Below, in pieces: positions 7,560-31,993 of a stretch of 33,654 bases of DNA. The notes under the pieces were generated by a model. The model searched no databases, was not told the origin of the DNA, and saw only the letters and a program-made list of their open reading frames with translations. Position 1 is the first letter of the stretch, and each line of letters begins with the position of its first letter. The position numbers and the translations under genes were made by a program. Origin of the DNA: Chitinophagaceae bacterium (lineage in GTDB: Bacteria; Bacteroidota; Bacteroidia; Chitinophagales; Chitinophagaceae); NCBI GenBank assembly GCA_004299085.1, contig SCQV01000366.1, positions 1-33,654 of the forward strand, written 5' to 3'.

Positions 7560-7588
7560 CCGACAACTTAAAGACAAAAAATAAACGG

Positions 7589-9025: not shown

Positions 9026-9039
9026 ATGAATAATACATT

Positions 9040-9873: not shown

Positions 9874-9918
9874 TCTCCCACTTGTAACAGCATAATTCTT
9901 TTCTTATAAGTAAAATAA

Positions 9919-9950: not shown

Positions 9951-9975
9951 CGTTTCTACTAAAGGATTATTGCTA

Positions 9976-9983
9976 TTACTTTG
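9976..9983 (+). promoter_or_regulatory. Probable -7 promoter element (TTACTTTG)
   Basis: TTACTTTG matches TAnnTTTG at all but the second fixed base. It begins 26 bp after the last base of the operator, the same spacing as at 1980-2006. Transcription would start near 9990, leaving a leader of about 80 nt before the ATG at 10073. Confidence 0.45.
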
Positions 9984-10072
9984 CCCTAATACTTGATGAT
10001 AAAAGATATATTTTTTTAGAAAACAGGCAAACATCAATAAAACAAAACATCATAATTTAAATCTTTAGTCCC

Positions 10073-10903
10073 ATGTCATACTTTAAATTGATGCCAAAAC
10101 ATATAGATGATTATAAAAAAAACGGCTATATCATAATCAGGAACTTCCTAAGTCTAGAGGAAATCACCAAACTTTCAGATGCTGCATGGGGGGACTCGGT
10201 TATAATGAGACACGCCTTTGATTTAAATGATAAAACGGGGAAAAAAACAAAATTGACCTCTTGGTATTTTCCAGGGAATGACATATACGGCTTCCTTACC
10301 AGAAGCAAGAGAATTGTAGGGTCGGTTGACAAATTGATAGCTGGGGAAGGTGCTGTTTGCCATTTTCATAGCAAGTTAATGCAGAAAGAACCGAGAGTAG
10401 GTGGAGCTTGGGAGTGGCATCAGGATTATGGATACTGGTATAAAAATGAATTCTTGTTTCCAAACCAGATGATCTCGGTGATGGTTGCTATAACAGATGC
10501 CAATAAGGAAAATGGTTGCCTTCAGGTAATAAAAGGCTCTCACAAAATGGGACGTATTGAGCATGGGTTTGCTGGTGAGCAGGTGGGTGCCTCACAACAT
10601 TATGTTGATCTGGCATTAAAAACAATGGAGCTAGTATATGTAGAAATAAAAGCAGGAGATGCTCTTTTTTTTCACAGTAATTTATTGCATCGCTCTGAAG
10701 CCAATCTTTCAGATAAGCCCCGGTGGTCTTTAATTTCATGTTACAATAGAATCACTAATGTCCCATATAATGAACCGTCAAAATCAAGTATTACTCCCTT
10801 GAAGATGGTTCCTGATGAGTCCCTGCTAGAATGGAAAACAGAGGATATTACCGAAGAAGCAGATTTTGCGAATAAAAGCCAGGTTCATAAGAAGAATTCT
10901 TAA
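10073..10903 (+). CDS. Phytanoyl-CoA dioxygenase (PhyH)-family Fe(II)/2-oxoglutarate oxygenase
   Basis: This 276-residue cytosolic protein is typical in length for PhyH-family oxygenases. The iron triad is visible: HQD at residues 116-118 (WEWHQDYGYWY) and His206 in FFHSNLLHRSEAN, with Arg217 (SDKPRWSL) placed to bind 2-oxoglutarate. GYIIIRNFLSLEEI near the N-terminus is also characteristic. It should hydroxylate a small molecule using oxygen and 2-oxoglutarate; the substrate is unknown and need not be a CoA ester. Its promoter carries the same operator as the region A operon. It precedes the first SusC gene by 284 bp, so it belongs to the polysaccharide-utilisation-like locus. Confidence 0.87.
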   Translation: MSYFKLMPKHIDDYKKNGYIIIRNFLSLEEITKLSDAAWGDSVIMRHAFDLNDKTGKKTKLTSWYFPGNDIYGFLTRSKRIVGSVDKLIAGEGAVCHFHSKLMQKEPRVGGAWEWHQDYGYWYKNEFLFPNQMISVMVAITDANKENGCLQVIKGSHKMGRIEHGFAGEQVGASQHYVDLALKTMELVYVEIKAGDALFFHSNLLHRSEANLSDKPRWSLISCYNRITNVPYNEPSKSSITPLKMVPDESLLEWKTEDITEEADFANKSQVHKKNS

Positions 10904-11187: not shown

Positions 11188-14100
11188 ATGAAAATTCATT
11201 TACGTCTTAAGGACATATTGTCTCCAAGCCACTTTAAGGAGAGTCCTTTCCTAAAGAAGCAAGTCCTTACATCAGTATTAATGTGCATTTTTTGCATGAA
11301 TTCTGTCGCGATACCGCATAACAGGTACGATGGACACAATTTGTTAAATTTATTAAAGGTGGAATATCCTACCTTAATTGGGTCAAAAGATGTTATAATT
11401 AGAGGCCATGTAACTGATGATAATGGGAAACCCCTTCCTGGTGTGACTATTCACTTAAAAGGCACATCCATTGGAACCACCTCAAACACGAATGGTAATT
11501 ATCATATTAGTGTTACTGAAGGTGGTATATTAGTCTTTTCTTTTGTCGGTTATGAAACTCAGGAAATAAAGATAGTTGATCAATCAACAATAAATGTAGT
11601 ACTAAAAGTAAGCAGTACTCTCTTGGGAAAAGTGATAATCACTGCGCTCGGCGTAAAGCAAAACACCAATCAAATCTCTTATGCTACCCAAACAGTTTCA
11701 GGTAAAGAACTGAATACAGCTCCATCAACTAATTTTGTAGATATGCTATCTGGACGGGTTTCAGGCGTTTCTATCCATCAAAGCAGTTCCGGAATTGGGG
11801 GATCGGCTAGTGTGGTCATCAGAGGGTTTAAGTCTGTTCAGGGGAATAATCAACCGTTATATGTTATTAATGGTGTTCCCATGGATAACTTTTCTTCGGA
11901 TGTTATTAATCAAACTTTTACTAGTATGGATCAGGGGGACGTCATATCTTCTTTAAACCCCCAAGATATTGAGAGTATCACCGTATTAAAAGGAGCCTCT
12001 GCGGCGGCACTATACGGCAGTGATGCGGCTAATGGGGCCATACTAATAACTACAAAGCAAGGGGTGGCCGGTACCACAACGGTACATTTATCTTCAAGTC
12101 TTACAATAGATAAAGCAGCTTATGGAATTCCACAGCTACAAAACTCATACGGAGAATCATCTCCCGGATCAGAACAAAGCTGGGGCTCTTCCATTTCGAA
12201 TGCTTCAGATATTATTTCGGGGTTTTTTCAAGATGGAATAACTAACAATAATTCTGTCTCGCTTTCCACAGGCTCCGAAAGAACACAAACCTATATCTCT
12301 TATGGAAATACTACCGCCCGTGGTATTATAGAAAATAATACCCTGTCAAGGAATAATCTCAATGTTAATGAAACGTCCCATTATTTCAATAATAAACTAA
12401 GTATTAACGCAAATGTTAGCTTCGAAGAACAAACAATTAATAATCCTTATGTGAGTGGTTATCAGGCCACCGTATTGCGTGGGTTGTATGGTTTTCCCAG
12501 AGGATTAGATTTTACCCCCTATAAGCAATATCAAATATTTGATTCTACCAGAAATGTTTATACTCAGAATTGGCCTTTTATCACTGCTGATGATCAGAAC
12601 CCTTATTGGGTAGCAAATAAGAATTTAGCCACCAATAAGCGTAACAGATCTATGTTGGCCATGACCGTAAAATACAATATAACAGATTGGCTGAATCTTC
12701 AGCTCCGGGGAAGCAGGGAGAGAATAAATGACCTTAATACTATAGAATATTATTTGGGCACACAGGGGGCTTATGCTGGTACGAATGGAGGGTATAAATA
12801 CCTTAACGCTACCAATACTCAGTATTATGGAGATGCTTTACTCAATTTTGCAAAAACATTTAACAAAATACACATAGACGGGTTGCTAGGAACCAGTATA
12901 AAGAATTCAGAACAATACGGCGTAACAGCAGGAAATTCCACCAATCTATATATTCCTAATGTATTTCTTCTGCAAAATATGAGTGTTATAAACGGTACCA
13001 CAACAAGTCAACTTTCAAATCAGCATGAGCAGGTGCAGTCGGTTTTCGGAAGTGCCAATGTATCCTATAATGATTGGCTGTTTCTTAATCTTACAGGTAG
13101 AAACGACTGGGCATCTACCTTAAGCTTTACTCCTAATGAGTCGTTTTTTTATCCCTCGATTGGATTAGATTTATTGTTGAACAAGGTAGTAAAATTACCG
13201 GAAGTTATAAGCTATACAAAACTTCGGGGTTCTTACGCTGTAGTAGGTAATGCTGTCCCTCTTTTTGTTACTAACCCACAGAATCATTTAAATAGTCAGG
13301 GGAACGTGGTCTTTAACAATAAGGCCCCATTTACGGATCTAAAACCAGAGAAAACAAGATCCCTTGAATTTGGCGCCGATATTCACTTGTTAGAAGATCA
13401 ATTCATTTTGGACTTTGCCTATTATAAATCTAATTCAATCAATCAATTCTTCCCCGTTGCTGTCCCTCCTGGAACAGGATTCAGTACCCGTTTTGTGAAT
13501 GGCGGAAATATCCAAAACTCTGGGGTTGAGATTACTATAGGATACTCAACGCCCAAAGGCCGGCCTTTTCAATGGAGTTCAAACATAAATTTCTCTACCA
13601 ATAGAAACATAGTCAAACAATTGGCGCCCCAATTTGGATTGAACCAATTCCTGTTGGTGAATGACATAAATGGTTATTCTTCCATCCTTAAGGTTGGAGG
13701 GTCTTATGGAGATATTTATGGGCCAATTTTGCAACATGACAAAAGCGGTAGGATAATGATTGATACGAGCGGTGTTCCTATAAGACAAGGAGGGTTGCCA
13801 TCTTATTTAGGCAATCCGAATCCTAAATTTCAAATGGGATGGAATAATACTTTTGGATACAAGAACTTTATACTTAGTATTCTATTTGATGGATCGGATG
13901 GTGGGAAAGCGATGGATCTAACAGAACAAATGTTGGATGGCCTTGGAGTTTCTAAAGCATCTGGTATTGCACGAGAAAACGGCGGAGTGAAGGTAAATGG
14001 CGTTGTGTCTGAGACCGGAGCGACTGTTACTACAGTAGATGCTCAGAAATGGTACACGACTATCGGAGGAAGAGGTGGCGTAACCGGAGAGTATATGTAT

Positions 14101-16444: not shown

Positions 16445-18427
16445 ATGTATTTTTGCTTGTATCTTTTCTTTCTATTGGTACTGTTATTTGGACACCAAAG
16501 TCAAAGCCAACACAAAATAAAGAATAATGATTATGCTTTATTCTCAAACTGCAACGAGTGGACACATGATTATGCCATGGGAGGCCCATCATGGGATATG
16601 TTTGAGCGACTTAGGGACAATCCTGTATTTAGGGGATACAAAGGTAGGGAATGGCCGGTTAATGGGTTCCTATTTTTAGACCCAGTAAGTAAGGATTGGT
16701 ATTTGTATATTGGTTTATATAGAGAATTTTACGGGGATTTTAAAGATTCTTCAACTACGAGAGCTTCTATATGTATAATTTATAAGTCGTCGGATAAAGG
16801 TAACTCTTGGCAAAGAATAGGAGACCTATTCCCCAAGGATATGACCTACTTTGATGATTCTCTGAAATACGTGAGTGCTCCGGATGTTATGGTTACTTAT
16901 TCCGGAGGGAAATATCACATGGTCTTCGACTGGGGAGCTAAGGATTTCGATTGGGAACATGCTTACCGAGGTGGATTAGGTTATGCAGAGGCAGAAAACC
17001 CTGCTGGCCCATGGACAGTGGCAGGTAAGCCGATAAAGGTGGATTCACAATTTTTACATCATCCGTTATTGGGTAGATATTGGAGGATGTACGCAGGTAT
17101 GATTATTAAGCGGAAAAAAGATTGGGTCTTATTGTACATGATGGACACCCAGCCACCTCGTAGTTGGGCCTTGGCTGCATCAACTTCATCTCGGCCTGAA
17201 GGACCTTACGGAGATACTAAGATTCTTCGTCATGTGGAAGTGAAAACATATTACCCGCCTCTTTTGGAATATTTTCCAGCATTTATTCATGACGGGTATG
17301 TTTATCTACCGGCTACCTCCGTTTCAATTAATAGGAATTATCAATATGTCTCTCGTGTGAAAATAGAAGATGTTATGACCCCAAGTAAATATCAAGTATT
17401 CAATGCTGGCTCTTTTTGGCATCCTGAAGACGTTGAGAATGAATATTGGGGAATCTGGGGGCAAACTTTTAGTGCCTTTATTGATAATAGGAATGATTCT
17501 ACGTACCTGATGTTTCCATCTAAAGACAAGAAAGATTACGGAACCATTAACATAGCAAAAGCATCTTGGAACCACTTATATAGAAAGAGAGGGTTTAACT
17601 TTGGTGCGAGTGAAGGAAATTCGTTTTCGTTTATTAAAAAAGGAATAAACGTTTCAGAAATAAACATGAAGTTTAAATTGGAAGGGACTATGCATCTTAT
17701 CTGGGATTTTCACTCTCCGATAGATATATTGAATGGGTGGGGAGAGTTTTCTCTGAGCCAAAACAGTCCAAACTATAAAGAGATTATAATTAATAAGTCA
17801 GGTTGGAAGATTAAGGTATATGATGGAAACAAAGATAATGTTCAGGTAATTGATTCCGGCATTTTTCATAATTGGAATGATAACGAAAATAGCCTTGATC
17901 TTAAAGGGGATAATGGGAGACATAGCCTTTTTATAAATGGTATAAAATGTTGGGAAGGGGAATTACAAAATAACCCTGGCGTGGTGGGAATAGAGTTAGA
18001 CCCTCATAGTTACTTATTTGATAACCGTTTTATAATATCTGGGGAAAAGGTACCATGCTATGTAACTTATGGCTTCTATAGAGCGCTTGTGAATGCAGGA
18101 AACCAAGATAGCGATTGGAATTTCAAGAAGAAGGACTCCTTGTTCCAATATGGCAGAGGGGCTGTAGCAAAAAAAGATTCAAGTTTTGCAAAATGGCAGT
18201 TTTACGGGAAAAGGTTTAATATTTTTTCACCAAAAGGGCCTTTATATGGAACTATAAACATATATCTTGACGGAAAATTACTCAAGAATATATCACTGAG
18301 ATCTTATCGCCTAAGGAAATCATCTATAATCTTTCAATCAGCAGCAATTAGTCCGGGTAAACATGCGGTTTATATTGAATCATTAGATGGCTTACTACCG
18401 GTTGATTGTATTAAAGTCGAACTATAA
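16445..18427 (+). CDS. Secreted beta-propeller glycoside-hydrolase-like protein with C-terminal accessory domains
   Basis: This 660-residue protein has an N-terminal export signal (LYLFFLLVLLFG, then QSQSQ). Residues from about 30 to 380 have repeated propeller-blade strands such as FLFLDPVSKDWYLYIGLYRE, CIIYKSSDKGNSWQRIG (an Asp-box-like turn), APDVMVTYSGGKYHMVFDWG and PAFIHDGYVYLPATS, as in GH43/GH32/GH33-like five- or six-bladed enzymes. Residues of about 390-535 look like a jelly-roll. The C-terminal 130 residues (KWQFYGKRFNIFSPKG, IYLDGKLLKNISLRSYRLRK) resemble a carbohydrate-binding module common in secreted Bacteroidota enzymes. I cannot place it in a known GH family or name the catalytic acids. 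It probably acts on the ligand of the upstream SusC/SusD pair in the periplasm or at the surface. Confidence 0.65.
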   Translation: MYFCLYLFFLLVLLFGHQSQSQHKIKNNDYALFSNCNEWTHDYAMGGPSWDMFERLRDNPVFRGYKGREWPVNGFLFLDPVSKDWYLYIGLYREFYGDFKDSSTTRASICIIYKSSDKGNSWQRIGDLFPKDMTYFDDSLKYVSAPDVMVTYSGGKYHMVFDWGAKDFDWEHAYRGGLGYAEAENPAGPWTVAGKPIKVDSQFLHHPLLGRYWRMYAGMIIKRKKDWVLLYMMDTQPPRSWALAASTSSRPEGPYGDTKILRHVEVKTYYPPLLEYFPAFIHDGYVYLPATSVSINRNYQYVSRVKIEDVMTPSKYQVFNAGSFWHPEDVENEYWGIWGQTFSAFIDNRNDSTYLMFPSKDKKDYGTINIAKASWNHLYRKRGFNFGASEGNSFSFIKKGINVSEINMKFKLEGTMHLIWDFHSPIDILNGWGEFSLSQNSPNYKEIIINKSGWKIKVYDGNKDNVQVIDSGIFHNWNDNENSLDLKGDNGRHSLFINGIKCWEGELQNNPGVVGIELDPHSYLFDNRFIISGEKVPCYVTYGFYRALVNAGNQDSDWNFKKKDSLFQYGRGAVAKKDSSFAKWQFYGKRFNIFSPKGPLYGTINIYLDGKLLKNISLRSYRLRKSSIIFQSAAISPGKHAVYIESLDGLLPVDCIKVEL

Positions 18428-18916: not shown

Positions 18917-19942
18917 TTAAGAATTCTTCTTTTTATTCAATGAAGATTCTCTAACAACCAATTTACCATCCAAGATTATTGTCTTAGGATTGATATTCCC
19001 TGTCGAAGTTAATTCCTCTAGGAGTAACATAGCAGCAGTTCGTCCCATCTCATAAGTAGGTTGATCCACGCTAGTCAGGGATGGCTCAACAACTTCCGCC
19101 ATTTTTGAATTAGAAAAACCTACGAATCCAATGTCTTTAGGTATTTTAAGACCGTGCTTTTTTGATACCCTCATAGCTCCTATGGCAATAAGATCATTAG
19201 TGGCGAATACGGCATCGGGGATATTGTCTTGTTGGATAAGGGCTTCCATTGCTCGCTCTCCACCCTCAATCGAAAAACTGGTTTCAATGATTTGTCTGTC
19301 TTCGCAAGGGCATCTATATTTTTCCATTGCTCGTTTAAACCCCCTAATGCGTTCCTTAACAAGTGTAAGATGGGTATGGCCAGTAAGATGAACTATCTTT
19401 TGATACCCTTGCTCAATAAGATGTTCTGTTGCAAATAATGACCATTTATAATCATTGAAAAGAACCTTCGGGGAAGATAATCCACTATTAACGCGATTAA
19501 AAAGTACTACGGGAAATTTATCTTTAATAAGATGTTCTAAGTAATCAATATTCATCGTTTCTTTAGATAAAGATATCAGCAACCCTTCCACCATATTATT
19601 TTCCAGAGAAATAATATTTGCCAGTTCCAACTCTGCGTTTTCGTTAGATTGCATAATGATCACCTGATAACCTTTTTCATAAAAGACTTCCTGTACGCCA
19701 ATAATGACCTCTGGGAAAAAAGAATGTATAAATTCCGGAACGATGACGCCGATGTTGAACGAGTGTTTTTGAAGAAGTTTTTTAGCAATAGGATTTGGTT
19801 TATACCCTAACTCTTTTGCTTTTTGTAAGATCATCTCCTTCGTCTCCTTTCTTATATCATACCTGTCATTGAATGCTTTCGATACGGTAGCTACGGAAAC
19901 ATTTAGTGAATGAGCAATATCTTTTATGGTAATATACCGCAT
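18917..19942 (-). CDS. LacI-family transcriptional regulator
   Basis: This 341-residue regulator has the family's normal length. The start is taken at the ATG 19942-19940, giving MRYITIKDIAHSLNVSVATV, where the helix-turn-helix begins at once as in other LacI proteins. The longer frame from 19981 adds 13 residues not seen in the family. The hinge helix is NPIAKKLLQ and the sugar-binding domain starts at SFNIGVIVPEF. The FNRVNSG, AVFATNDLIAIGAMR and GFVGFSNSKMAE motifs are typical of the periplasmic-binding-protein-like core. It is divergent from the FAD oxidoreductase operon, with three operator-like palindromes between them. It probably represses that operon and itself until a sugar inducer binds. 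Confidence 0.93.
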   Translation of the reverse strand: MRYITIKDIAHSLNVSVATVSKAFNDRYDIRKETKEMILQKAKELGYKPNPIAKKLLQKHSFNIGVIVPEFIHSFFPEVIIGVQEVFYEKGYQVIIMQSNENAELELANIISLENNMVEGLLISLSKETMNIDYLEHLIKDKFPVVLFNRVNSGLSSPKVLFNDYKWSLFATEHLIEQGYQKIVHLTGHTHLTLVKERIRGFKRAMEKYRCPCEDRQIIETSFSIEGGERAMEALIQQDNIPDAVFATNDLIAIGAMRVSKKHGLKIPKDIGFVGFSNSKMAEVVEPSLTSVDQPTYEMGRTAAMLLLEELTSTGNINPKTIILDGKLVVRESSLNKKKNS

Positions 19943-20022
19943 GATCAAAGTATTTGTTAAATATGAAGATGTAAGATACAAACTCCTAAAATATTATTAA
20001 TAATTAAGTAACAATAAGGTTC

Positions 20023-20363: not shown

Positions 20364-22658
20364 ATGAGTATTCTTTTTATGTTAAAAAACGATAAAGAAA
20401 CAATTCGTATTAATAAGCTTGTTAAGCTGAACGCAGGCATGGTAGTTACAGGGGGAGGAATGGCCGGGGTATGTGCTGCGATTACGGCAGCAAGGGCCGG
20501 AATTAAGGTGGTGCTCGTTCAAGACCGGCCTGTATTAGGCGGTAATGCATCAAGTGAAATAAGACTTTGGATATTGGGAGCCACCTCTAGTATGGGCAAC
20601 AATAACCGATGGTCCAGAGAAGGAGGAGTGATAGATGAAATACTAGTTGAAAATCTTTTTCGGAATAAAGAAGGTAATCCATTAATTCTAGACACCATTC
20701 TGTTAGAGAAAGTAACTAATGAAGCTAATATCACCCTGCTCCTAAACACAGCCGCTTATGAAGTAACTAAAAAAGACGAAAAAGTCATTCAATCGGTTAA
20801 AGCATTTTGTAGTCAAAACTCAACTGAATATGAATTGTCTGCCCCACTGTTCTGTGATGCTTCCGGTGATGGCATAATAAGTCATTTATCCGGTGCTTCT
20901 TTTAGGATGGGGGCTGAATCCAGAGAGGAATTTGGCGAGCAACTAGCTCCCGAAAAAAACTATGGAGAGTTGTTGGGGCATTCCCTTTATTTTTATAGCA
21001 AACGGGTGGAAAAACCGGTAAAGTTTATTCCTCCTGCTTTTGCGCTACAGGATATCACTAAAATACCACGATATAAAATGCTCAATCAGAAGGATGATGG
21101 ATGCAGACTTTGGTGGATAGAATATGGAGGAACAAAAGATACAGTCTATGATACTGAAACCATAAAATGGGAATTGTGGAAGGTGATTTACGGGGCTTGG
21201 AATTATATAAAAAACTCGGGGAAATTTGAAGACGTGGACAACCTTACCTTGGAATGGGTTGGCACTATTCCAGGAAAAAGAGAAAGTCGTCGCTTTGAAG
21301 GAATGTATATGCTTACACAGCAAAATATAGTTAATCAGACTCAATTTAATGATGCCGTATCATACGGAGGATGGGCACTTGACCTGCATCCGGCAGATGG
21401 TATTTATAGTAAACTACCTGGATGTAATCAGTGGCATGGCAAGGGTATCTACCAGATACCTTACCGTTGTTACGTGAGTAAAGATATTGACAATTTATTC
21501 TTTGCAGGTCGTATTATTAGTTCCACACATGTTGCGTTTGGGTCGTCGAGAGTAATGGCTACGTGTGCGTTAGGAGCACAAGTCGTAGGCTTGGCCGCGG
21601 CAATGTGTCGAAAACATAGCTTATTGCCGAAAGATATTATTGAAGAATCATGGATAGCTAAGCTGCAAAATGCCCTAAATAGAAGAGGACAGAGCATTCC
21701 TGGGATTCCTATTAACTATGGCGCAGATAGTTTAATGCACCAGGTTTCTATTGCAGTATCTTCTGTTTGCAAGTTAAATATTATTCCCTTTAATGGTGGT
21801 TGGTTGCGATTAGATATAGGCACTGCAGAGCTATTACCAATGAAAAAAGGTACGTGCTATCATTTTAAAATAAATGTAAAAGCATCGAAAAGAACAATAT
21901 TAACAGTTGAATTAAGAAGCAGCTCAAAGAAATTCAATTACACACCGGATATAACGCTTGAAACTATAAAAATACCTGTTAAAGAAGGAGAGCAGTTTGT
22001 TGAGTTACATTTTTCAGCACCCATCCCGGAAGACCAATACGGATTCCTTCTGCTTCGTCAAAATAAAGATATAGAGGTACAGGAAAGTATGTCTCGTTTT
22101 ACTGGAATTGAATCCATATTTAATGGAAAGAACAAAGCTGTTTCAAATAACGGGTACCAGGATGCACCAGAACGATTGGGTGTGGATAGTTTTGAGTTTT
22201 GGTGCCCGCGTAGGAGGCCGGAAGGGCGAAACATTGCTATGGAAATTTCACCGGCTTTAGAACCTTATGATCCTGTTTTTTTGAAAAACGGGTTCACTCG
22301 CCCCTACTTAAAAACAAATGCATGGGCAGCCGACCCATCAGAAGGGAATGCGGAGGTAGTTCTTACATGGAACAGTCCTCAAAAAATATCTTCTGTTACT
22401 CTCTTTTTTGATACCGATTTTGATAACCCCTTAGAGTCTTCATTAAGAGGGCATCCTGAGAATGTCATCCCTTTCTGTATAAAAGAGTATTCTATATATA
22501 ATGATACTGGCATAGTATTGTATAAAACAAACGATAATCACCAGACTATAAATAGAATAGATTTAAAAAGACCTGTTGAAACATCATATTTAAAAATCCA
22601 ATTCAAACGGCCAGATATTCATATACCTGTAACCTTATTCGAAATACTTGTTCAATGA
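20364..22658 (+). CDS. FAD-dependent oxidoreductase (FAD_oxidored type) with C-terminal discoidin-like domain
   Basis: This 764-residue protein opens with a Rossmann FAD-binding fold (MVVTGGGMAGVCAAITAARA, Gly30-Gly35), followed by QDRPVLGGNASSEIR. A second FAD contact, FCDASGDGIISHLSGASFRMG, lies at about 167-187. NLFFAGRIISSTHVAFGSSR near 380-400 is the typical 'GR..S..H.a.gs.R' region of PF12831 proteins. The last 160 residues (KISSVTLFFDTDFDNP to LKIQFKRPD) look like an F5/8 type C (discoidin) beta-sandwich. No signal peptide or Tat motif is seen, although the sugar-binding-like tail is more usual in exported proteins. It starts the LacI-controlled operon, 39 bp before the second SusC. 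It probably oxidises a sugar or sugar acid; substrate unknown. Confidence 0.85.
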   Translation: MSILFMLKNDKETIRINKLVKLNAGMVVTGGGMAGVCAAITAARAGIKVVLVQDRPVLGGNASSEIRLWILGATSSMGNNNRWSREGGVIDEILVENLFRNKEGNPLILDTILLEKVTNEANITLLLNTAAYEVTKKDEKVIQSVKAFCSQNSTEYELSAPLFCDASGDGIISHLSGASFRMGAESREEFGEQLAPEKNYGELLGHSLYFYSKRVEKPVKFIPPAFALQDITKIPRYKMLNQKDDGCRLWWIEYGGTKDTVYDTETIKWELWKVIYGAWNYIKNSGKFEDVDNLTLEWVGTIPGKRESRRFEGMYMLTQQNIVNQTQFNDAVSYGGWALDLHPADGIYSKLPGCNQWHGKGIYQIPYRCYVSKDIDNLFFAGRIISSTHVAFGSSRVMATCALGAQVVGLAAAMCRKHSLLPKDIIEESWIAKLQNALNRRGQSIPGIPINYGADSLMHQVSIAVSSVCKLNIIPFNGGWLRLDIGTAELLPMKKGTCYHFKINVKASKRTILTVELRSSSKKFNYTPDITLETIKIPVKEGEQFVELHFSAPIPEDQYGFLLLRQNKDIEVQESMSRFTGIESIFNGKNKAVSNNGYQDAPERLGVDSFEFWCPRRRPEGRNIAMEISPALEPYDPVFLKNGFTRPYLKTNAWAADPSEGNAEVVLTWNSPQKISSVTLFFDTDFDNPLESSLRGHPENVIPFCIKEYSIYNDTGIVLYKTNDNHQTINRIDLKRPVETSYLKIQFKRPDIHIPVTLFEILVQ

Positions 22659-22697
22659 TATGAAATGGAATCTTTATAAACAGTTAAACTTTAAGCT

Positions 22698-25600
22698 ATG
22701 AAACAGTTTTTTTATTTACTCATAATTTTCCTGCTCTTTAGCGGGATGAGCATTGCACAGCAGCGGGTAATCAAAGGTGTAGTCAAAAATGAAAAAGGTA
22801 ACGTCTTAGTTGGTGCCAATGTCATGGTAATTGGTACGACCAACGGCACGATTACCGATGCCAATGGTGGCTTCACATTGAGAATCAATAGAGATGATGC
22901 CATTCTGAAAGTCTCTTACCTTGGCTTCCAGAGTAGGGACGTTCCTATCTCAAATCAGACCTTTCTCAATATTAGATTAAATTCTAATTCTGTAGGGCTA
23001 TCCGAGGTCGTGGCGATTGGCTACGGGAGCATGAAGAGTGCTAATCTTACGAATGCGGTGGCAGAAATGAAAATGAATAAGGTTCAAAACAGGCCCATAA
23101 CCGGTATTGGTAGTGCCCTGGAAGGGCAACTTGCCGGTGTCAGGGTTCAGACAGCCGATGGAGGACTCCCGGGAGCCGCACCCAGTATTACAGTCAGGGG
23201 TATTGGCTCAATCAATGGAGGCACCGGCCCGCTTTACGTAGTTGATGGGATTCCCCTCAGTGGCGGACTTGATAACATTAGCACCAGTGATATTGCATCT
23301 ATTGAGGTGTTGAAAGATGCTGCCTCGGCAGCCATTTACGGTTCCAGGGGGTCGAACGGGGTCGTTCTAATTACTACTAAGCAGGGTAAAGAAGGTGGGC
23401 CGGTAATTAATTTGAATGTTCAGACGGGGATACAGGAAGTCATGAAGACCTATCAGGTCATGAACAGAGATCAATGGATCAAGTTTGCCATAGAGGAGAG
23501 AACAAATACGTATGCTTTAAACGGAGGGAATCCCAACGTACCTATTCAGGACAGGCCGGGATTTACCGCCATTGATCCTAAGTGGATAAGTGATCCGAAT
23601 AGCTTTCCGGATAATAATTGGGCAGATCTTATTTATAGAAAAGCCCCTTTTCAAAACTATCATTTATCGGTTAGCGGAGGGAGCCAGAATACCAAATACT
23701 ATTTTGGAGGAGAATACATGAACCAGGAGGGGCTTATGATTAACAGCGGGTATAAGAGATATTCCCTTATCGCCAACGTAGAGAGCCATGTCAATAAATG
23801 GATTGAGCTCGGATTAAACTTAAATGCCAATATTGCTAGTACTACAAATCCCGATGCTGAAAACATTGGAGGACCAGTAAGCAGGGCGGTATTCATGCCT
23901 CCAATCGTAGGCATAGATCAAAATACCGATGCCACAGGGTTCAACCCATGGGTACTAAGCGCCCTTGTTAATCCCTTACAATGGGCGAAGCAAGTAACAG
24001 ACCCATCGAATGACTCAAGGCTGTTATCTTCATTCTATGCCCAGGTCAATATCCTTGATGGACTCAATTTCAGGAGTACGGTTTCTGCCGGGCTGCAAAA
24101 CTCCAGAGATAATTATTATATGCCTAATAGCATCAACAGGGGTAAGGGTAGCCTTGCAGATTTTTCCACCGGTATGACGGTAAACCTGCTAAGTAATAAT
24201 ATATTTACGTACGATAATACCTTTGGTAAGAGCCACATTAATGCCATTGCCGGTTTTACTGCACAAAAGATTGATGCGCAAAGCAACTATGCTCAGGCAA
24301 CCGGGTTCCCGAATGATGCTGTCAGAACGCTGAATGCAGCGACACAGATTCTGTCTGCCACTTCCAGCACTACCGGTTCCCGTTTATTATCTTATCTGGC
24401 AAGGGCAATATACAGCTACAATGACCGGTATCTTTTTACCGCAAGCATCCGGCGAGACGGGTCTTCTAAATTTGGAACGAATAATAAATGGGGGTGGTTC
24501 CCTTCTGTATCAGCCGGATGGAGAATATCTGATGAGAACTTTATGAAGGATGTGCACTTTATTAATAATTTAAAGTTAAGGGCAAGCTATGGTATTACAG
24601 GAAACAATTCATTTCCGGGGAATAATGATTTTCCCTCAATTGGTGCCTTAGCCCAAGCTAATTATGTATTCGGTTCAGGGTTAGGGAATAAAATAATCGG
24701 GTTAAGGCAATCTACGCTGTCCAACCCCGATTTAACCTGGGAGAAAGATAAATCTACTGACATAGGATTAGACATCGGTATTCTGAATAACAGGATATCA
24801 GCCAGCATAGACTGGTATGACAGGCTGACCTATGGGTTGCTTTTAAATGTACCGGTTCCTCAGATAACCGGATTCAGTAATGCCTATCAGAATGTCGGGA
24901 AAGTTGATAACAGAGGATTTGAGCTTGAGCTGGATGCGCATGTTTTAACAGGACGATTTAAGTGGGATTTGGGCGGGAATATTTCCCATAATAAAAATAC
25001 CGTCAAACAACTCGGCCCAGGAAATACCCCTATCCCCGGGGTCGCAAGGGGAACTATTGTATCTTTAACAAAGGTCGGTGATCCGATAGGATCATACTAT
25101 CTTATCCCGGTCGTGGGCATCTTTCAGACACAGGAAGAAGTGGATACCAGTCCCGTGTCCAAAGTAGAAAATCCGGGCGACCTTAAATATAAGGACACTA
25201 ACGGAGACGACGTTATTAATGATGCGGACAGACAGATAGTAGGACACAATAACCCGAATTATATCTGGGGAATGACCAATTCCTTCCAATATAAAAATTT
25301 TACTTTGTCAGTGTTCCTCCAGGGCGTTTGGGGTAATAGTTTGGTAAGTACTAGTATGGCGGGTGAGGGCCAGTCCCGGCAAAATAATTTATCTCTATTC
25401 TTAGACCGATGGGAATCACCAGATCACCCCGGTAACGGGAAAGTCCCACGGGCGGCCGTGACGGCCAATTTGACAACAGCCTCTACCTTCTGGATGTTTA
25501 ACGCGAGCTACTGGCGGATACAGAATATTTCTTTGGGTTACGCTTTTCCGGATGAACTCTTTCATAAAATTAAGGGTATCTCAGGAGTGAACGCTTACTT

Positions 25601-25754
25601 AAGTGTTGAGAATATCGCCTCTTTCGACCATTATTATGGCGTTCCGGAAACAGGATCCCAATCTAATGATCCTTTAACCCCAGGTCTTGATGCATTAACC
25701 ACGTATCCATTAGCGAGGACCTTCACCTTTGGGCTAAACCTTTCCTTTAAATGA
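22698..25754 (+). CDS. Second SusC/RagA-family TonB-linked outer-membrane transporter
   Basis: This 1018-residue protein has a clean signal peptide (FFYLLIIFLLFSGMSIAQQ) and a CarboxypepD_reg domain (VIKGVVKNEKGNVLVGANVM). The plug carries VAIGYGSMKSANLTNAV, SITVRGIGSINGGTGPLYVV and IEVLKDAASAAIYGSRGSNG. The barrel ends in TFTFGLNLSFK. It is a standard-length SusC, unlike the first pair with its long N-terminus. Its codons look richer in G and C than those of the 11188-18427 genes, suggesting a separate origin. It ends in a 4-bp overlap with the SusD frame's first possible ATG. It imports the glycan handled by the BNR protein and lyase downstream. Confidence 0.96.
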   Translation: MKQFFYLLIIFLLFSGMSIAQQRVIKGVVKNEKGNVLVGANVMVIGTTNGTITDANGGFTLRINRDDAILKVSYLGFQSRDVPISNQTFLNIRLNSNSVGLSEVVAIGYGSMKSANLTNAVAEMKMNKVQNRPITGIGSALEGQLAGVRVQTADGGLPGAAPSITVRGIGSINGGTGPLYVVDGIPLSGGLDNISTSDIASIEVLKDAASAAIYGSRGSNGVVLITTKQGKEGGPVINLNVQTGIQEVMKTYQVMNRDQWIKFAIEERTNTYALNGGNPNVPIQDRPGFTAIDPKWISDPNSFPDNNWADLIYRKAPFQNYHLSVSGGSQNTKYYFGGEYMNQEGLMINSGYKRYSLIANVESHVNKWIELGLNLNANIASTTNPDAENIGGPVSRAVFMPPIVGIDQNTDATGFNPWVLSALVNPLQWAKQVTDPSNDSRLLSSFYAQVNILDGLNFRSTVSAGLQNSRDNYYMPNSINRGKGSLADFSTGMTVNLLSNNIFTYDNTFGKSHINAIAGFTAQKIDAQSNYAQATGFPNDAVRTLNAATQILSATSSTTGSRLLSYLARAIYSYNDRYLFTASIRRDGSSKFGTNNKWGWFPSVSAGWRISDENFMKDVHFINNLKLRASYGITGNNSFPGNNDFPSIGALAQANYVFGSGLGNKIIGLRQSTLSNPDLTWEKDKSTDIGLDIGILNNRISASIDWYDRLTYGLLLNVPVPQITGFSNAYQNVGKVDNRGFELELDAHVLTGRFKWDLGGNISHNKNTVKQLGPGNTPIPGVARGTIVSLTKVGDPIGSYYLIPVVGIFQTQEEVDTSPVSKVENPGDLKYKDTNGDDVINDADRQIVGHNNPNYIWGMTNSFQYKNFTLSVFLQGVWGNSLVSTSMAGEGQSRQNNLSLFLDRWESPDHPGNGKVPRAAVTANLTTASTFWMFNASYWRIQNISLGYAFPDELFHKIKGISGVNAYLSVENIASFDHYYGVPETGSQSNDPLTPGLDALTTYPLARTFTFGLNLSFK

Positions 25755-25771
25755 TATTAAATTTAAGAAAG

Positions 25772-27253
25772 ATGAAAAATAGACACTATATTATCCTGCT
25801 GTTGCTTTCGGTGTTTGCTTCAGCCTGTTCGGATAAGTTCATTAATTTTACCCCCCCCTCCATTAACTCTGCCGAAGGGTTCTTCAATACAAAAGAAGGT
25901 GTTGACCAGGCAGTAATTGGGGCTTACAACGGGCTTCAGGAAGTGGAAGCCTCTAATTTTGCTGAGTTGATGAATGAGGAAAGATCAGATAATGTATGGA
26001 CTCCATCGGTTGTCTCGAGTTATAATGACCTTTCCGTCCAGAAGTTTTTGGTATCCTCCAGTGAACCATTCTTAGATGACGCATGGTCTGATACTTATGA
26101 CGTAATCCACCGGTGTAATCTGGTACTGGAGAATATCGGGAGTGTATCTTTCAGCGATACCACATTAAAGAGTCAGTATATTGGGCAGATGGAATTCATA
26201 AGAGCACTTATGTATTTTGACTTAGTAAGATACTTCGGAGGGGTTCCTCTTGTAACCAAAAGTGTAACTCCGGAGGAGGCAACCAAGATAAAGCGGGCAA
26301 CAGTCCAGGAAACATATAATTTAATCATAAATGATTTGAAAGATGCCATTAATAGATTGCCCAAAACTTATGCTGGGGCAGATATAGGCAGGGCGACTAA
26401 ATATTCGGCGGAAGGATTGTTAGGCCGGGTTTATGTTGCCATGGGTGGCTATCCCTTGAAAGCCCCCATGTGGTCAGCAGCAAAGGGGCTCTTTGAAGAT
26501 ATTATTTCTTCCGGGCAATTCCAGTTTCTGCCAACCTATGCAGGTGTCTTTAATTTGGCTAACGAAAATGGTCCTCAATGCGTATTCTACGTCCAGTTTA
26601 AGGCCGGGGCTAATGACGTAGGGAATCCTATACCTACCAGGAATGCTGATAATGACGTAAACCCCAGTACCTTCCCGTTTGGCGGCAGCCCTGATGCCCC
26701 GATAGTTTCTCAGGACCTTATAGATAGCTATGAGCCGGGAGATGTACGCTATGCCCATGATATACGCCTGAAGTGGGTCAATAAGTCCGGCGACACAGTA
26801 TCCAATCTGCCAACTATTCAAAAATTTGCACAGGGAACACCAGCTAAGGCGAGTGATTGGGATATCAACTGGCCGGTAATCAGATATGGGGATGTGTTAA
26901 TGATGTATGCTGAATGCCTGAATGAATTAGGATACGACCCTAACGGACAGGCGATGCAAATATTAAATATGGTTCGAACCAGAGCCGGATTACCATCTAA
27001 AACACCGGCTGAAATACCAAACCAACAGGCATTCAGGGCGGCAATGGAAGAGGAGAGAAGACATGAATTTGTAGGGGAGAATTTCCGGTGGAATGACTTG
27101 GTCAGGACAGACATGGCCTTTGATACAATGAAACATTTTCTGGGTGAATTTGGAATGGGGAATAATCTGAAAAGCAGGGATCAATATCTCTATCCAATCC
27201 CCCTGCAAGTCTTAGAGGTTAACCCCTCTATGAGCCAAAACCCTGGTTATTGA
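25772..27253 (+). CDS. Second SusD/RagB-family outer-membrane lipoprotein
   Basis: This 493-residue partner of the preceding SusC is taken from the ATG at 25772, which gives a compact lipoprotein signal (MKNRHYIILLLLSVFASAC, lipid Cys19). An earlier in-frame ATG at 25751 overlaps the SusC stop. Standard SusD features are WSDTYDVIHRCNLVLENIG, GQMEFIRALMYFDLVRYFGG, VIRYGDVLMMYAECLNELG, RRHEFVGENFRWNDLVR and the terminal YPIPLQVLEVNPSMSQNPGY. It belongs to the classic SusD (PF14322/PF07980) group, unlike the SusD-like_2 protein of the first pair. The 252 bp between it and the next gene hold no recognisable element. Confidence 0.95.
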   Translation: MKNRHYIILLLLSVFASACSDKFINFTPPSINSAEGFFNTKEGVDQAVIGAYNGLQEVEASNFAELMNEERSDNVWTPSVVSSYNDLSVQKFLVSSSEPFLDDAWSDTYDVIHRCNLVLENIGSVSFSDTTLKSQYIGQMEFIRALMYFDLVRYFGGVPLVTKSVTPEEATKIKRATVQETYNLIINDLKDAINRLPKTYAGADIGRATKYSAEGLLGRVYVAMGGYPLKAPMWSAAKGLFEDIISSGQFQFLPTYAGVFNLANENGPQCVFYVQFKAGANDVGNPIPTRNADNDVNPSTFPFGGSPDAPIVSQDLIDSYEPGDVRYAHDIRLKWVNKSGDTVSNLPTIQKFAQGTPAKASDWDINWPVIRYGDVLMMYAECLNELGYDPNGQAMQILNMVRTRAGLPSKTPAEIPNQQAFRAAMEEERRHEFVGENFRWNDLVRTDMAFDTMKHFLGEFGMGNNLKSRDQYLYPIPLQVLEVNPSMSQNPGY

Positions 27254-27505
27254 AACTAATATCTATTTTAATCCGGCAGAACAGTGGAGCAATTAGTACA
27301 TTGCTGATTGAGATTCTGTTTCTTAAAAGTGTAACAGACTTGAAAAACAATCTAGGGGTCTATAATAATAGAATGAATTTGTTAGACAACTTCTGAAACG
27401 TATTACTGTATTGGTTCTGGTGGAATAGTCAGAGAAAGTAAGCGAATAAATGGGCTATACAAATCCTGTTCGAAAACTGATTTAATTTAAAATAATTTGT
27501 TCAAA

Positions 27506-28708
27506 ATGAAAAAATTGATTGTGTTCTCTGTACTTCCCTTAGTGATGCCGCTGGTTTACCTTGTTGGGATTCAAACCAGTATGGCGGCTAATTTAAATGT
27601 AGGAAAGGTACTCTATAGTAACTCGATCCAGAATGAACCAACTATTTGGAAAGAGTCGGACGGTGAGATGGCTTCAGATACTTCGGTTAATCCCCAACAA
27701 ATATTTTTCCATTTTCGTAAAACCCAAATTCTCTTTAATGCTAATATCCTTAATGGAAGAAAGTATTGTGCATTCCCTTCAACTGTTAAATTGAATGATT
27801 CGACTGTTTTAATATCTTATAAGAGAGGATATGCCCATTACAAAGATACTGGGTTTGTGGGTCTAATTAGGTACGATCCAAGGATAATGAAGGTAATCAG
27901 TAGAGGTCCCATATATAAAACTAAATATAATAATCAGAATACGGAAATTCTTAAAATGCCCAATGGAGACGTAGTTATATACGTTGACAGACAAATGCCT
28001 GGTCCTAAAAAAAGGATAGGGCTTGAAGAGCTAAGATCAACGGACGACGGAATTACTTGGAAGGATATGGGAACTGTCGGGTTAGTTAATGGGGTTCAAT
28101 TTGGTTATGCATTTGATGATTACATTGAGGGGCACACGATATATGCCTTATGGATGACGTTCCCGGAACTTAGGGGATCCGAAGGCGAAAGAAGTGTTCA
28201 CGTGGTTAAGTCAAATAATAATGGTGAGTCCTGGACAGACATAAAGGATCTAACCAAAGCTTATAAAAAAGCGTTTAATGAATCTACTCTTGTAAAGTAC
28301 AATAATGGATTTCTAATTGTGGCTAGAGCGGATGAAAAAGGTTCAGCATTTATATTTAAAACGGATTCCAATTTTAACCTAATCAAAGAGAAGAATCTTT
28401 CTTCAGTATATTCATGTATTGATGCAATCGGTAGGCCAAAACTATTTGTGAAGGATGGATCATATTATATGATTTGTAGAAATAATAGCTGTTTGTTTTT
28501 TTATAAGATTAATCCTGCAACCTTGAGCATTGAAAAATGGGCAAGACTTTATAGAAGCCCAGGATGGGGGGGGGATGCTCATTATGCTGAGCCCTATTTC
28601 CAACAAGAAGGTAATAAGACTTATTTTAATGTTATAGATTATTTTCCTGTAAACAGTCGTTTCCCTGAAATAGTGCGATTTGAATTTAAATGGGCAGAAC
28701 TCAGATAG
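27506..28708 (+). CDS. Secreted BNR-repeat (sialidase-fold) protein
   Basis: This 400-residue protein starts at the ATG 27506; the longer frame uses a TTG at 27497. A signal peptide (KKLIVFSVLPLVMPLVYLVG, then SMAA) is clear. Two Asp-box turns are visible, STDDGITW at residues 178-185 and SNNNGESW at 236-243, the mark of sialidase/BNR beta-propellers. I do not see a convincing FRIP motif or the full Arg triad of GH33 sialidases, so activity on sialic acid is not shown. It lies 76 bp before the sialic-acid-lyase-like gene. It probably binds or cleaves the terminal sugar that the lyase later splits, or it is a lyase or hydrolase of another propeller family. Confidence 0.75.
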   Translation: MKKLIVFSVLPLVMPLVYLVGIQTSMAANLNVGKVLYSNSIQNEPTIWKESDGEMASDTSVNPQQIFFHFRKTQILFNANILNGRKYCAFPSTVKLNDSTVLISYKRGYAHYKDTGFVGLIRYDPRIMKVISRGPIYKTKYNNQNTEILKMPNGDVVIYVDRQMPGPKKRIGLEELRSTDDGITWKDMGTVGLVNGVQFGYAFDDYIEGHTIYALWMTFPELRGSEGERSVHVVKSNNNGESWTDIKDLTKAYKKAFNESTLVKYNNGFLIVARADEKGSAFIFKTDSNFNLIKEKNLSSVYSCIDAIGRPKLFVKDGSYYMICRNNSCLFFYKINPATLSIEKWARLYRSPGWGGDAHYAEPYFQQEGNKTYFNVIDYFPVNSRFPEIVRFEFKWAELR

Positions 28709-28784
28709 GGAGAAAGCTTATACTATGATTCTTGGTGTCTTTCTACCGTGATCATGAAGTTAAAATTAAAAACATAAAATTAAT

Positions 28785-29702
28785 ATGATATTTAAAAAGA
28801 TTGAAGGGTTAGTAGCCCCTGTATTTACGCCAATGGCTCCAGACGGGAGCTTAAATTTGGCGAAAATAGAAGAATATGCCAAAGACCTAATGGGGAAAGG
28901 ATTATCTGGAGTTTTTGTCTTGGGATCCTCTGGAGAAGGACTTCTTTTAAATACCGAAGAGAGAAAAGAGGTAGTTGAAAGGTGGTCTCGTTATACAAGT
29001 GAAAGATTTAAGCTAATTGTCCATGTCGGAGCAACAAGTTACCGGGAAGCCCAGGAACTCGCAATACATGCCCAGGAGCACAACGCCTTTGCTATTTCGA
29101 GTATGGGGCCTTCCTTCTTACAACCAAAACGAACGGAAGAATTAGTGATGTACTGTTACCAGATAGCATCAGTTGTACCTGAATTGCCATTCTATTATTA
29201 TCATATCCCGATCAGGTCTGGGGTGACGGTTAATATGTGTGCTTTTTTAAAAAGTGCTTCAAAAAAGATACCCAACCTGGTTGGTATTAAATACACGGAT
29301 TCTAATCTTATGGAACTGCAGCAATGTCTCAATTTAGATAATAATAAGTTTGATATACTTTACGGTTCTGATGCCTCTCTAGTTTGTGGACTTACCTTAG
29401 GAATTAATGGAGGGATAGGGACCACCTATAATTTCATGCCGCATGTTTATTATAAGATGATTGAGGCATTTAAGAAAAAGGATATTTTAGAAGCCAGAAA
29501 GCACCAATGGTTTTCAGTTCAGGTAAATGATATTATAGCCCGATACGGAGGAGGGATCGTTGCCGGTAAAGTAATTGAAAAATTAATAGGAATAGATTGT
29601 GGCCCATGCAGGTCGCCTCTCAAGAATTTAACTCAGGCGGAGGTTGGCTTAATGCAAAAAGAACTTGAGTCAATTGGCTTTTTCGAAAAAGCGCTTAATT
29701 AA
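28785..29702 (+). CDS. N-acetylneuraminate lyase-like aldolase (DapA/NAL superfamily)
   Basis: This 305-residue cytosolic class I aldolase is the normal length for the family. GSSGE (47-51) binds the carboxylate, Tyr139 in FYYYHIP is the proton relay, and Lys169 in LVGIKYTDSN is the Schiff-base lysine. GGIGTTYNFM (209-218) is the sialate-lyase form of the motif rather than that of dihydrodipicolinate synthase. PFYYYHIP and EGLLLNTEERKEVVERW look most like the animal-type NPL subgroup. The E. coli enzyme binds the sugar tail with Asp191-Glu192; here the pair is Asp196-Ala197. It probably splits a sialic-acid-like or other 2-keto-3-deoxy sugar acid into pyruvate and an aldose. The neighbouring BNR protein and transporter support this, but no N-acylmannosamine epimerase or kinase is present. 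Confidence 0.85.
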   Translation: MIFKKIEGLVAPVFTPMAPDGSLNLAKIEEYAKDLMGKGLSGVFVLGSSGEGLLLNTEERKEVVERWSRYTSERFKLIVHVGATSYREAQELAIHAQEHNAFAISSMGPSFLQPKRTEELVMYCYQIASVVPELPFYYYHIPIRSGVTVNMCAFLKSASKKIPNLVGIKYTDSNLMELQQCLNLDNNKFDILYGSDASLVCGLTLGINGGIGTTYNFMPHVYYKMIEAFKKKDILEARKHQWFSVQVNDIIARYGGGIVAGKVIEKLIGIDCGPCRSPLKNLTQAEVGLMQKELESIGFFEKALN

Positions 29703-29829
29703 ATTTAATAAACCGACCTAATCTGGGGAAAATGATTAGTCAGTATAGCCATAGGGTTATTTTAATATAATAAAGGAAATGAATAGAAAGACTCAACATT
29801 AAAGATATTATTAATTCATTGAAAGTAAT

Positions 29830-31095
29830 ATGCCAATATCTTCAGTACCCCATGTTTCTATAGGGCAACCTATTAAAAAAGATATACTTCCCGGCGCGTG
29901 GGTTGTGGTGGCATTGCTCTCCTTTGTAGGAACGTTAAATTATCTGGATCGTACTACCATCACTACGATGAGAGATTCGATTACTGCTGCAATTCCAATG
30001 AATAATGCCCAGTTCGGATTATTAACTTCTGTCTTTTTATGGGTATATGGTATTTCAAGCCCGTTTGTAGGCTTTTTGGCAGACAGATTCAGTAAAAGCA
30101 AGGTTATTATTTTAAGCCTGATTGTCTGGTCGGTAGCCACGGTTATAACAGGATTCTGCAAGACATTCGATGAATTATTAGCTACAAGGATACTAATGGG
30201 TATTAGTGAAGCATGTTACATTCCGGCTTCATTGGCTCTTATCATGGATTACCATAAGGGATCTACTCGTTCCCTGGCTACTGGAATAAATATGGTTGGG
30301 CTAATGGTCGGGTCAAGTTTGGGGTTTTTAGGGGGGTGGATAGCAGAACATCATAGCTGGAATTTTGCATTCCATATTTTCGGCATTATAGGTATTGCCT
30401 ATTCTTTATTCTTGATATTTGTCCTTCGGGATGCCCCCAGAAATATATTAACTCCAGTGGAAAAGCAGGGGCAAAAGAAGATCCGCTTCTTTGATACTGT
30501 GAAGTCTCTTTTGAGCATTCGCTCATATATTCTAATGCTCATCTTTTGGGCGCTACTTGGTATTGTGGGGTGGCTAATTGTAGGATGGCTACCTACTTAC
30601 TTCCAGGACCATTTTCATCTTTCTCAGAGTATGGCAGGTTTATATGCTACAGGGTTTCTTTATCCATCTGGCATAGTCGGCTTACTTTTAGGTGGGTTTG
30701 TAGCTGATAGGTGGAATAAGCTCAACCCAAGAGCCAGAATTCTTACTCCAGTCATTGGGCTTTGTGTGGCTGCCCCCAGTGTTTTTATTGCCAGCTATAC
30801 AAATGCACTCCCGCTAGCAATCGTGTTCTTTATTGCCTATTATCTAATGCGTACATTTAGTGATACCAACCTGATGCCTATATTATCTATGGTAGCAGAC
30901 TCAAACCACCGGGCAACTGGATATGGGATTTTAAATTTGTTTGCCACAATTGTAGGAGGGATTGGTATCTATGTAGGAGGTACATTAAAGGATTCTCATA
31001 TTGGTTTTAACATAATTTTTCAATCCGCCTCTGTTCTTCTGCTCATTTGTGCAGGGTTATTATATTTCGTAAAGTCGAATGGAAAAAAGAGATAA
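29830..31095 (+). CDS. MFS transporter of the anion:cation symporter (ACS) type
   Basis: This 421-residue inner-membrane importer has about twelve hydrophobic segments. TLNYLDRTTI in the first helix is the 'NY.DR' mark of the ACS family (ExuT, GarP, sialin-like), which carries organic anions such as hexuronates and sialic acids. GFLADRFSKSKVI is the 2-3 loop motif, and RILMGISEACYIPASLALIMDY is the helix 4-5 region. The N-terminal 25 residues are hydrophilic. It lies 127 bp after the lyase. It is the natural carrier for an acidic sugar released in the periplasm by the BNR protein and hydrolase. Confidence 0.88.
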   Translation: MPISSVPHVSIGQPIKKDILPGAWVVVALLSFVGTLNYLDRTTITTMRDSITAAIPMNNAQFGLLTSVFLWVYGISSPFVGFLADRFSKSKVIILSLIVWSVATVITGFCKTFDELLATRILMGISEACYIPASLALIMDYHKGSTRSLATGINMVGLMVGSSLGFLGGWIAEHHSWNFAFHIFGIIGIAYSLFLIFVLRDAPRNILTPVEKQGQKKIRFFDTVKSLLSIRSYILMLIFWALLGIVGWLIVGWLPTYFQDHFHLSQSMAGLYATGFLYPSGIVGLLLGGFVADRWNKLNPRARILTPVIGLCVAAPSVFIASYTNALPLAIVFFIAYYLMRTFSDTNLMPILSMVADSNHRATGYGILNLFATIVGGIGIYVGGTLKDSHIGFNIIFQSASVLLLICAGLLYFVKSNGKKR

Positions 31096-31189
31096 TATTA
31101 AGCATTTGATGTCTATCTAAAAGGCTCGCTTTATAATGAAATGGAAATCATAAAATGAGGATAAATTGTATTCTCAATATAAGTATATC

Positions 31190-31993
31190 ATGAAAAAAAT
31201 CTATATAGTGGCTGTTCTTTTATTTTATGATATAAACTCCCTAAAGGCGCAGCCAAAAAGAAACCCAATAGTGGATACCATAATTACAATCTGTGGGAGG
31301 GAAACATACATTTCATATCCTATAGATATAAAAGAAAAGTATCCTGTAGTTATGGCTATTCATGGTAGTGGAAGGGGAGCCTTAAGTTACGATCCTAATT
31401 CTAAGTTGAGCTCTCCTTTTTATATACACCAAAGAAATTTGGCAGTAGATCATGGCTTTATGTTTGTTGTTATTTCAAACGGTGCCGATACATGGGGAAC
31501 TGACGAAGGATTGAAAAGGTTAGATTCCCTTTATAATTATATTTACGACAAGTACAACGTAAAAAAAAGATGGATACTTTGGGCAACATCGGCCGGAGGT
31601 GTTTTATTGGCACGGTTTATTAAAGATAACCCGGACAAAGTATGTAAAGCCCTTGGGACTTTTCCTGTGTATAATTTAAGATATGAGTATTTTCATTTGA
31701 AAAGTGCTCATAGCGCTTGGGGTACCGACACTACTGAAATGAACAGAATAAATCCAATTAATTATCCCCAAGCTTTTACAAATATTCCATATCTAATTTT
31801 CCATGGAAGGAATGATACTGCTGTACCGGTAAAAATAAACTCCATCAGATTAGAGAAGGAGGTAAATAACATAGGAGGGCATGTGATGCTTCACATAGTT
31901 CCCGGTGGGCATAGTACACACAATTGGCATGTTTACGATGATAAGGTTATTATTAGATTTTTATTGAATAAATGCCCCTATCGTAAATCCTGA
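31190..31993 (+). CDS. Secreted alpha/beta-hydrolase, probable esterase
   Basis: This 267-residue protein starts at the ATG 31190; the 24-bp longer frame needs a TTG. A signal peptide is present (KKIYIVAVLLFYDINSLKAQ). The hydrolase core shows the HGSGRGALSY oxyanion region, a nucleophile elbow WATSAGG with Ser134, Asp209 in HGRNDTAVPV and His241 in PGGHSTHNWH, a full Ser-Asp-His triad. The elbow has Ala where Gly is usual (A-x-S-x-G). The nearest groups are PHB-depolymerase/feruloyl-esterase-like and prolyl-oligopeptidase-like hydrolases. As the last gene of the module it may remove acyl groups from the glycan or sugar acid before transport, as sialate O-acetylesterases do; that role is inferred. 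Confidence 0.78.
   Translation: MKKIYIVAVLLFYDINSLKAQPKRNPIVDTIITICGRETYISYPIDIKEKYPVVMAIHGSGRGALSYDPNSKLSSPFYIHQRNLAVDHGFMFVVISNGADTWGTDEGLKRLDSLYNYIYDKYNVKKRWILWATSAGGVLLARFIKDNPDKVCKALGTFPVYNLRYEYFHLKSAHSAWGTDTTEMNRINPINYPQAFTNIPYLIFHGRNDTAVPVKINSIRLEKEVNNIGGHVMLHIVPGGHSTHNWHVYDDKVIIRFLLNKCPYRKS

Follow-up and report, generated by a model that had tools for sequence, protein, structure and literature searches.

A lyase of the N-acetylneuraminate lyase (NAL) type from a Chitinophagaceae bacterium carries two changes in its sugar-tail pocket, Glu to Ala and Leu to Arg, at the places of Glu192 and Leu142 of E. coli NanA. As judged from its sequence and gene context, the enzyme may be an aldolase that arose from a NAL and acts on a 2-keto-3-deoxy acid lacking the C8-C9 diol, probably one with a carboxylate tail. 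This reading is preferred tentatively, at a little under an even chance. The gene lies in the window, i.e., the whole stretch of 33,654 nucleotides analyzed, which corresponds to one entire contig (C311) of a Bacteroidota assembly with 625 contigs and 95% completeness. A substrate other than ordinary sialate, as proposed in the first-pass annotation, is not proven but is supported by several observations: the two pocket residues A197 and R144, the clade of the adjacent permease, the independent occurrence of the same Ala beside that permease clade in another genome (locus L185), a propeller protein unlike a sialidase, and the presence of two further, ordinary sialate loci in this genome.

The lyase gene is part of a same-strand unit (20364-31993, +). 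The four genes previously described as a sialic-acid set (propeller, lyase, importer, and esterase) are all present and intact on one strand, but they are only the downstream half of this larger unit. It is headed by a FAD-dependent oxidoreductase (20364-22658, Pfam PF12831), followed by a SusC-like TonB-dependent importer (22698-25754), a predicted SusD-like surface binding protein (25751-27253), a secreted BNR_2 propeller of the sialidase superfamily (from 27497 with a TTG start or 27506 with an ATG start to 28708), the NAL-type pyruvate lyase with P12, R144, and A197 (28785-29702), an ACS-type MFS permease (29830-31095), and a secreted alpha/beta hydrolase of the Peptidase_S9 or depolymerase-like type (31166-31993). 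The intergenic gaps, in this order, are 39, -4, 243, 76, 127, and 70 bp. A LacI-family regulator (18917-19981, -; Pfam LacI and Peripla_BP_3) is divergent from the unit, whereas GntR regulators recur at related lyase loci. Pfam searches of the four downstream proteins returned BNR_2 (E 1.8e-6, below the gathering score), DHDPS/NAL (8.7e-46), MFS_1, and a prolyl-oligopeptidase-like hydrolase. By Pfam, the supposed esterase is thus no SASA-type sialate O-acetylesterase. No epimerase or kinase, NanM, SASA, or GH33 gene was found in 20364-31993, and no gene of a pathway for the aldehyde product was recognized within the unit. A promoter and terminator scan gave signals no better than chance. Elsewhere in the window, a separate catabolic cluster (2026-10903) encodes a sugar MFS transporter, a sugar-isomerase-like protein, a PfkB kinase, a class-III aminotransferase, a protein without Pfam match (7511-9025), a DeoC/LacD aldolase, and a PhyH oxygenase. 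A 660-aa protein (16445-18427), weakly GH43-like in its N-terminal part, follows the first SusC/SusD pair of the window.

The motif G194-S195-D196-A197 was read directly in the window lyase. When the lyase is aligned with NanA of E. coli K-12, D196 falls on Asp191 and A197 on Glu192, which confirms that Asp-Ala stands where sialate lyases have Asp-Glu. The comparison covered 185 other distinct homologues from the family, phylum, and public genome set. Asp196 is present in 185 of the 185, and the Glu192 column contains Glu in 184 and Ala in one (L185). The A197 codon, GCC (29373-29375, +), is two base changes away from a Glu codon, which argues against a one-base sequencing error, and this explanation was dropped. 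The supply of a Glu from another position had been named earlier as a finding that would speak against an altered substrate; for the neighboring positions, this was also dropped, as S195, S198, L199, and V200 are the flanking residues. The Ser208 equivalent is T213. Two further changes had been missed by the first-pass annotation. R144 (codon 29214-29216, +) aligns with Leu142 of E. coli NanA and with the Arg of the DapA of a same-genus genome; among the other 185 sequences, this place holds 97 Leu, 43 Phe, 2 Lys, and 0 Arg. Moreover, P12 replaces an Ala12 that is invariant in the 185 homologues.

Studies on engineered enzymes give a meaning to these positions. Glu192 of E. coli NanA contacts O8 and O9 of the sugar (PMC3014015). 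In DapA, the Glu192 place is occupied by Ala189, and Arg138, at the place of Leu142, binds the distal (C7) carboxylate (PMC5380162). The single change L142R is sufficient for E. coli NanA to gain DHDPS activity (PMC5380162, PMC3014015). From this comparison, A197 and R144 both appear to shift the pocket toward the DHDPS state, and together they would make the tail pocket more positive. Among position-192 variants of NanA at 0.5 mM, significant cleavage of N-acetylneuraminate (Neu5Ac) was obtained with Glu and Gln only (PMC3014015). For E192S, the kcat/Km for Neu5Ac was 8 compared to 59 in the wild type, i.e., ~14% was kept (PMC3014015). By analogy, the loss of Glu192 would weaken Neu5Ac cleavage but need not abolish it, and residual Neu5Ac cleavage by the window lyase is quite possible.

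The activity kept by E192S speaks for ordinary sialate scavenging, in which Neu5Ac, or an O-acetylated or tail-modified form of it, would be cleaved with a weaker tail grip by a third, redundant locus. The nearest lyases, found mostly within sialate-type loci, agree with this explanation. The FAD oxidoreductase also has a 56% identical orthologue in G500, directly followed by a gene for an SSS-like symporter and then by all genes of an ordinary nan locus (the region is L254:7695-19859 on G500:C1), and permeases 48-50% identical to that of the window are located in sialate loci. Nevertheless, scavenging of this kind is rather unlikely given the near-invariant Glu of the homologues, the uniqueness of R144, the clade of the permease, the missing FRIP Arg and acid/base Asp of the propeller, and the two normal sialate loci that the genome already has.

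In its fold and catalytic residues, the enzyme is a regular NAL. The AlphaFold model (pLDDT 96.2) matches Proteus NAL 6h4e with a TM score of 0.94. The catalytic residues K169, Y139, and T171 are retained, K169 and Y139 being invariant in 142 of 142 homologues. Identity to NALs of Bacteroidota is 37-51%. The window lyase scores 151 bits with the NCBIfam N-acetylneuraminate lyase model (cut-off 281); the Glu-bearing NAL of Mariniphaga sediminis (L096) is also low, with 164 bits. The closest neighbor in the tree is this L096 lyase, 50% identical and sister to the window lyase with weak support (85/84). It retains Glu, which counts against the preferred reading of a diol-free substrate, as do the activity kept by E192S, the FAD orthologue in G500, and the 48-50% identical permeases at sialate loci. 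A contig scan with the single lyase sequence recovered no relative, and relatives were recovered with an alignment as query. Neither 294 genomes of the family nor the same-genus genome yielded a close orthologue. Together with the long end branch (0.76), this would suit a decaying or neutral paralogue whose changes arose by drift once the gene had been duplicated or transferred. Such decay is improbable: the frame is open, all catalytic residues are kept, the fold is predicted with high confidence, and drift would have to account for two simultaneous changes to the DHDPS state and for a second, independent Ala beside the same permease clade. At the 34 columns with 95% conservation in a previous alignment of 139 sequences, the window lyase was not among the sequences departing most, and it is therefore not broadly degenerate.

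The DapA-like pair of residues raises another question, namely whether the window lyase is the dihydrodipicolinate synthase of the cell. In the 95%-complete window genome, no DapA above the cut-off was found (best score 173, cut-off 206). This role is highly improbable, and replacement of DapA was dropped as an explanation. The window lyase reaches 112.9 bits with the dapA model (cut-off 206), and its gene sits in an uptake operon. The same-genus genome has a normal DapA with 324 bits, so a gap in the assembly is the likelier cause of the missing gene.

The permease provides a second line of evidence. It is 70% identical to the permease of L182, in a sister genome, and 65% to that of L183, another locus of its own genome, compared to 39% to the NanT-like permease of contig C406 and 24% to E. 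coli NanT. In the permease tree, the window, L182, and L183 are joined with a support of 100/99 and do not group with nan-locus permeases. Both L182 and L183 permeases adjoin a HpcH/HpaI aldolase (GarL/HpaI-like), in L182 along with an enolase-type sugar-acid dehydratase. The core permease clade comprises 16 loci including the window. HpaI is present in six of them, a DHDPS-like aldolase in four, and a NAL in two (window and L185); in the remaining four, the stretch read contains no aldolase. The aldolases are thus swapped around the core-clade permease, and the partner in the window happens to be a NAL. Outside this core, the permeases of the sister pair L197/L198 and of the verrucomicrobial L157 are in sialate loci with Asp-Glu lyases. 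BNR_2 propellers without FRIP recur beside core-clade permeases and HpaI or DHDPS-like aldolases (L182, L183, L188, L189, L193, L194, L196, and L079); these appear to form a larger, undescribed group of sugar-acid loci. A HEAT-like protein family also adjoins MFS permeases in some loci (L182:7826-8815; L187:9647-10651), whereas in L096 (10903-13350) it occurs as a fusion with an SSF symporter.

The other NAL beside this permease clade is located in genome G502 (L185, G502:C56:78000-97900; lyase 12103-13056). The permease led to this locus, and all strong NAL matches of the family search were checked afterwards. The L185 lyase reads G-R-D-A and lies beside a window-type permease, being both the only other Ala among 186 sequences, the window included, and the only other lyase beside the permease clade. 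With the window taken as given, the chance that the lone other Ala falls on the lone other clade-adjacent NAL is 1/185 (0.005). A single origin of Ala in the two lyases was rejected (p-AU 9e-6), so Glu was replaced by Ala twice. The neighbors in L185 are a YhcH protein and a tagaturonate reductase (543 bits, cut-off 359), and another locus of G502, L186, pairs an ordinary NAL with a NanT-like permease. This parallel points to an association of Ala at the 192 place with non-sialate sugar acids; for L185, one guess is hexuronate-derived KDG. As the L185 lyase keeps Leu142, the carboxylate-tail part of the preferred reading is drawn from the window lyase only.

The propeller fits a sialate locus poorly. 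In the alignment, A92-F93-P94 replaces R-I-P and GFVGLI, without Asp, occupies the acid/base place, although the register is uncertain in this weakly similar region. With the same uncertainty of register, E262, R277, and Y363 align with the sialidase Glu, Arg, and Tyr. The lack of an obvious FRIP motif reported earlier is thus borne out, and the acid/base Asp is also absent. A better register for the FRIP region was attempted and could not be forced. The AlphaFold model is poor (pLDDT 53), and its top Foldseek matches are sialidases, with weak support. Searches in the genomes of the order, family, and phylum gave only weak partial matches, so the protein has no known orthologue there. It is probably best regarded as a distant member of the sialidase superfamily and should not be named a sialidase.

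Two ordinary sialate loci were recognized in the same genome, with gene names assigned by sequence similarity and motifs. Contig C461 carries SusC/D, GH33, SASA, and a NAL with Asp-Glu. Contig C406 carries SusC/D, GH33, a hexosaminidase, an Asp-Glu NAL, NanM, the NanT-like permease, and an AGE-type epimerase. Since these loci are separate and have normal lyases, the window module represents a divergent addition to them; it is absent from one other genome of its genus. The absence of an epimerase and a ManNAc kinase, taken earlier as a sign against sialate, holds for the module itself, but carries little weight, as an epimerase is encoded in C406.

The first-pass annotation proposed another nonulosonic or octulosonic acid, such as legionaminic acid, pseudaminic acid, KDN, or Kdo, as the substrate. 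A 9-methyl tail, as in the 9-deoxy acids Leg and Pse, would suit the loss of the diol contact and a small residue at 197, and the unit contains a propeller of the sialidase superfamily. Leg and Pse offer no negative tail for R144, and the diol of KDN is the same as that of Neu5Ac. In addition, a literature search found no published lyase of the Leg/Pse type. This proposal is unlikely. Neu5Gc and KDN have the same C8-C9 diol as Neu5Ac and would therefore not explain the loss of Glu. A better fit is a 2-keto-3-deoxy acid that is shorter or ends in a carboxylate, or else a 9-deoxy acid.

In the preferred reading, the module would be a LacI-controlled unit for the uptake and cleavage of an acidic sugar. 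SusC/SusD would take the acid across the outer membrane and the MFS permease across the inner membrane. The NAL-type lyase would then cleave it by a Schiff-base retro-aldol reaction to pyruvate and an aldehyde. The wall that holds the C8-C9 diol (Glu192) would be rebuilt by Glu to Ala and Leu142 to Arg, i.e., minus one negative and plus one positive charge, giving a pocket in the DHDPS state, whose Arg binds a distal carboxylate. Because of this charge change, the substrate is expected to lack the C8-C9 diol and probably to end in a carboxylate. Ulosaric or aldaric acids are candidates, e.g., Dha of rhamnogalacturonan II. The analysis itself establishes the gene order, the residues, the fold, their distribution, and the permease clade, from which the substrate, the direction of transport, and the roles of the BNR protein, the FAD protein, and the hydrolase are inferred. 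A literature search found neither a dedicated catabolic Dha aldolase nor anything relevant on a FAD oxidoreductase together with a NAL. A bolder proposal, with a modest chance of being right, is that a sialate-lyase scaffold was naturally turned by Leu142Arg and Glu192Ala into an aldolase for dicarboxylic 2-keto-3-deoxy sugar acids (e.g., Dha), and that the aldolase-swapping permease clade marks wider undescribed sugar-acid pathways.

Positions 142 and 192 of NanA, both altered by protein engineers to redirect this enzyme, are changed together in a natural enzyme, and the change at 192 occurred twice independently beside one permease clade. Together, these cases offer a natural experiment in which aldolase specificity can be tested. 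Furthermore, a NAL-like gene beside a BNR protein does not suffice to annotate a locus as one for sialate, a mistake that is easily made with metagenomes.

Compared to known N-acetylneuraminate lyases (NanA/NPL; Proteus 6h4e, human 6arh, E. coli 1nal), the window lyase shares the fold, the catalytic Lys and Tyr, GxxGE, and the Asp191 equivalent. It differs by Ala, Arg, and Pro in place of Glu192, Leu142, and the invariant Ala12, and its permease and propeller partners also differ. The engineered E. coli NanA variants E192X and L142R are altered at the same specificity-changing positions, but they are single laboratory mutants, whereas the window lyase has Ala and Arg together. DapA belongs to the same superfamily and has the same Arg138/Ala189 pocket pair, yet both its sequence and its fold match place the window lyase in the NAL subfamily. 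The 2-keto-3-deoxy acid aldolases of the YagE/YjhH type, also of this superfamily, likely perform similar chemistry on shorter sugar acids; they are 26% identical to the window lyase and have Asp-Asp instead of Asp-Ala. The Mariniphaga sediminis locus L096 is the nearest module, with the best relatives of SusC (44%) and SusD (39%, others ≤27%). Its adjacent propeller-like protein has no Pfam match and no detectable sequence similarity to the window BNR protein, and is therefore a counterpart by position only. L096 has a HEAT-SSF symporter, GntR, and Glu, in contrast to MFS, LacI, and Ala in the window. The sialic-acid operons of Bacteroidota (nanLET and NanOU, e.g., in Tannerella) have the logic of SusC/D, propeller, NAL, and MFS in common with the window unit, which differs from them by the absence of an epimerase, NanM, SASA, and a FRIP sialidase and by a permease of a different clade.
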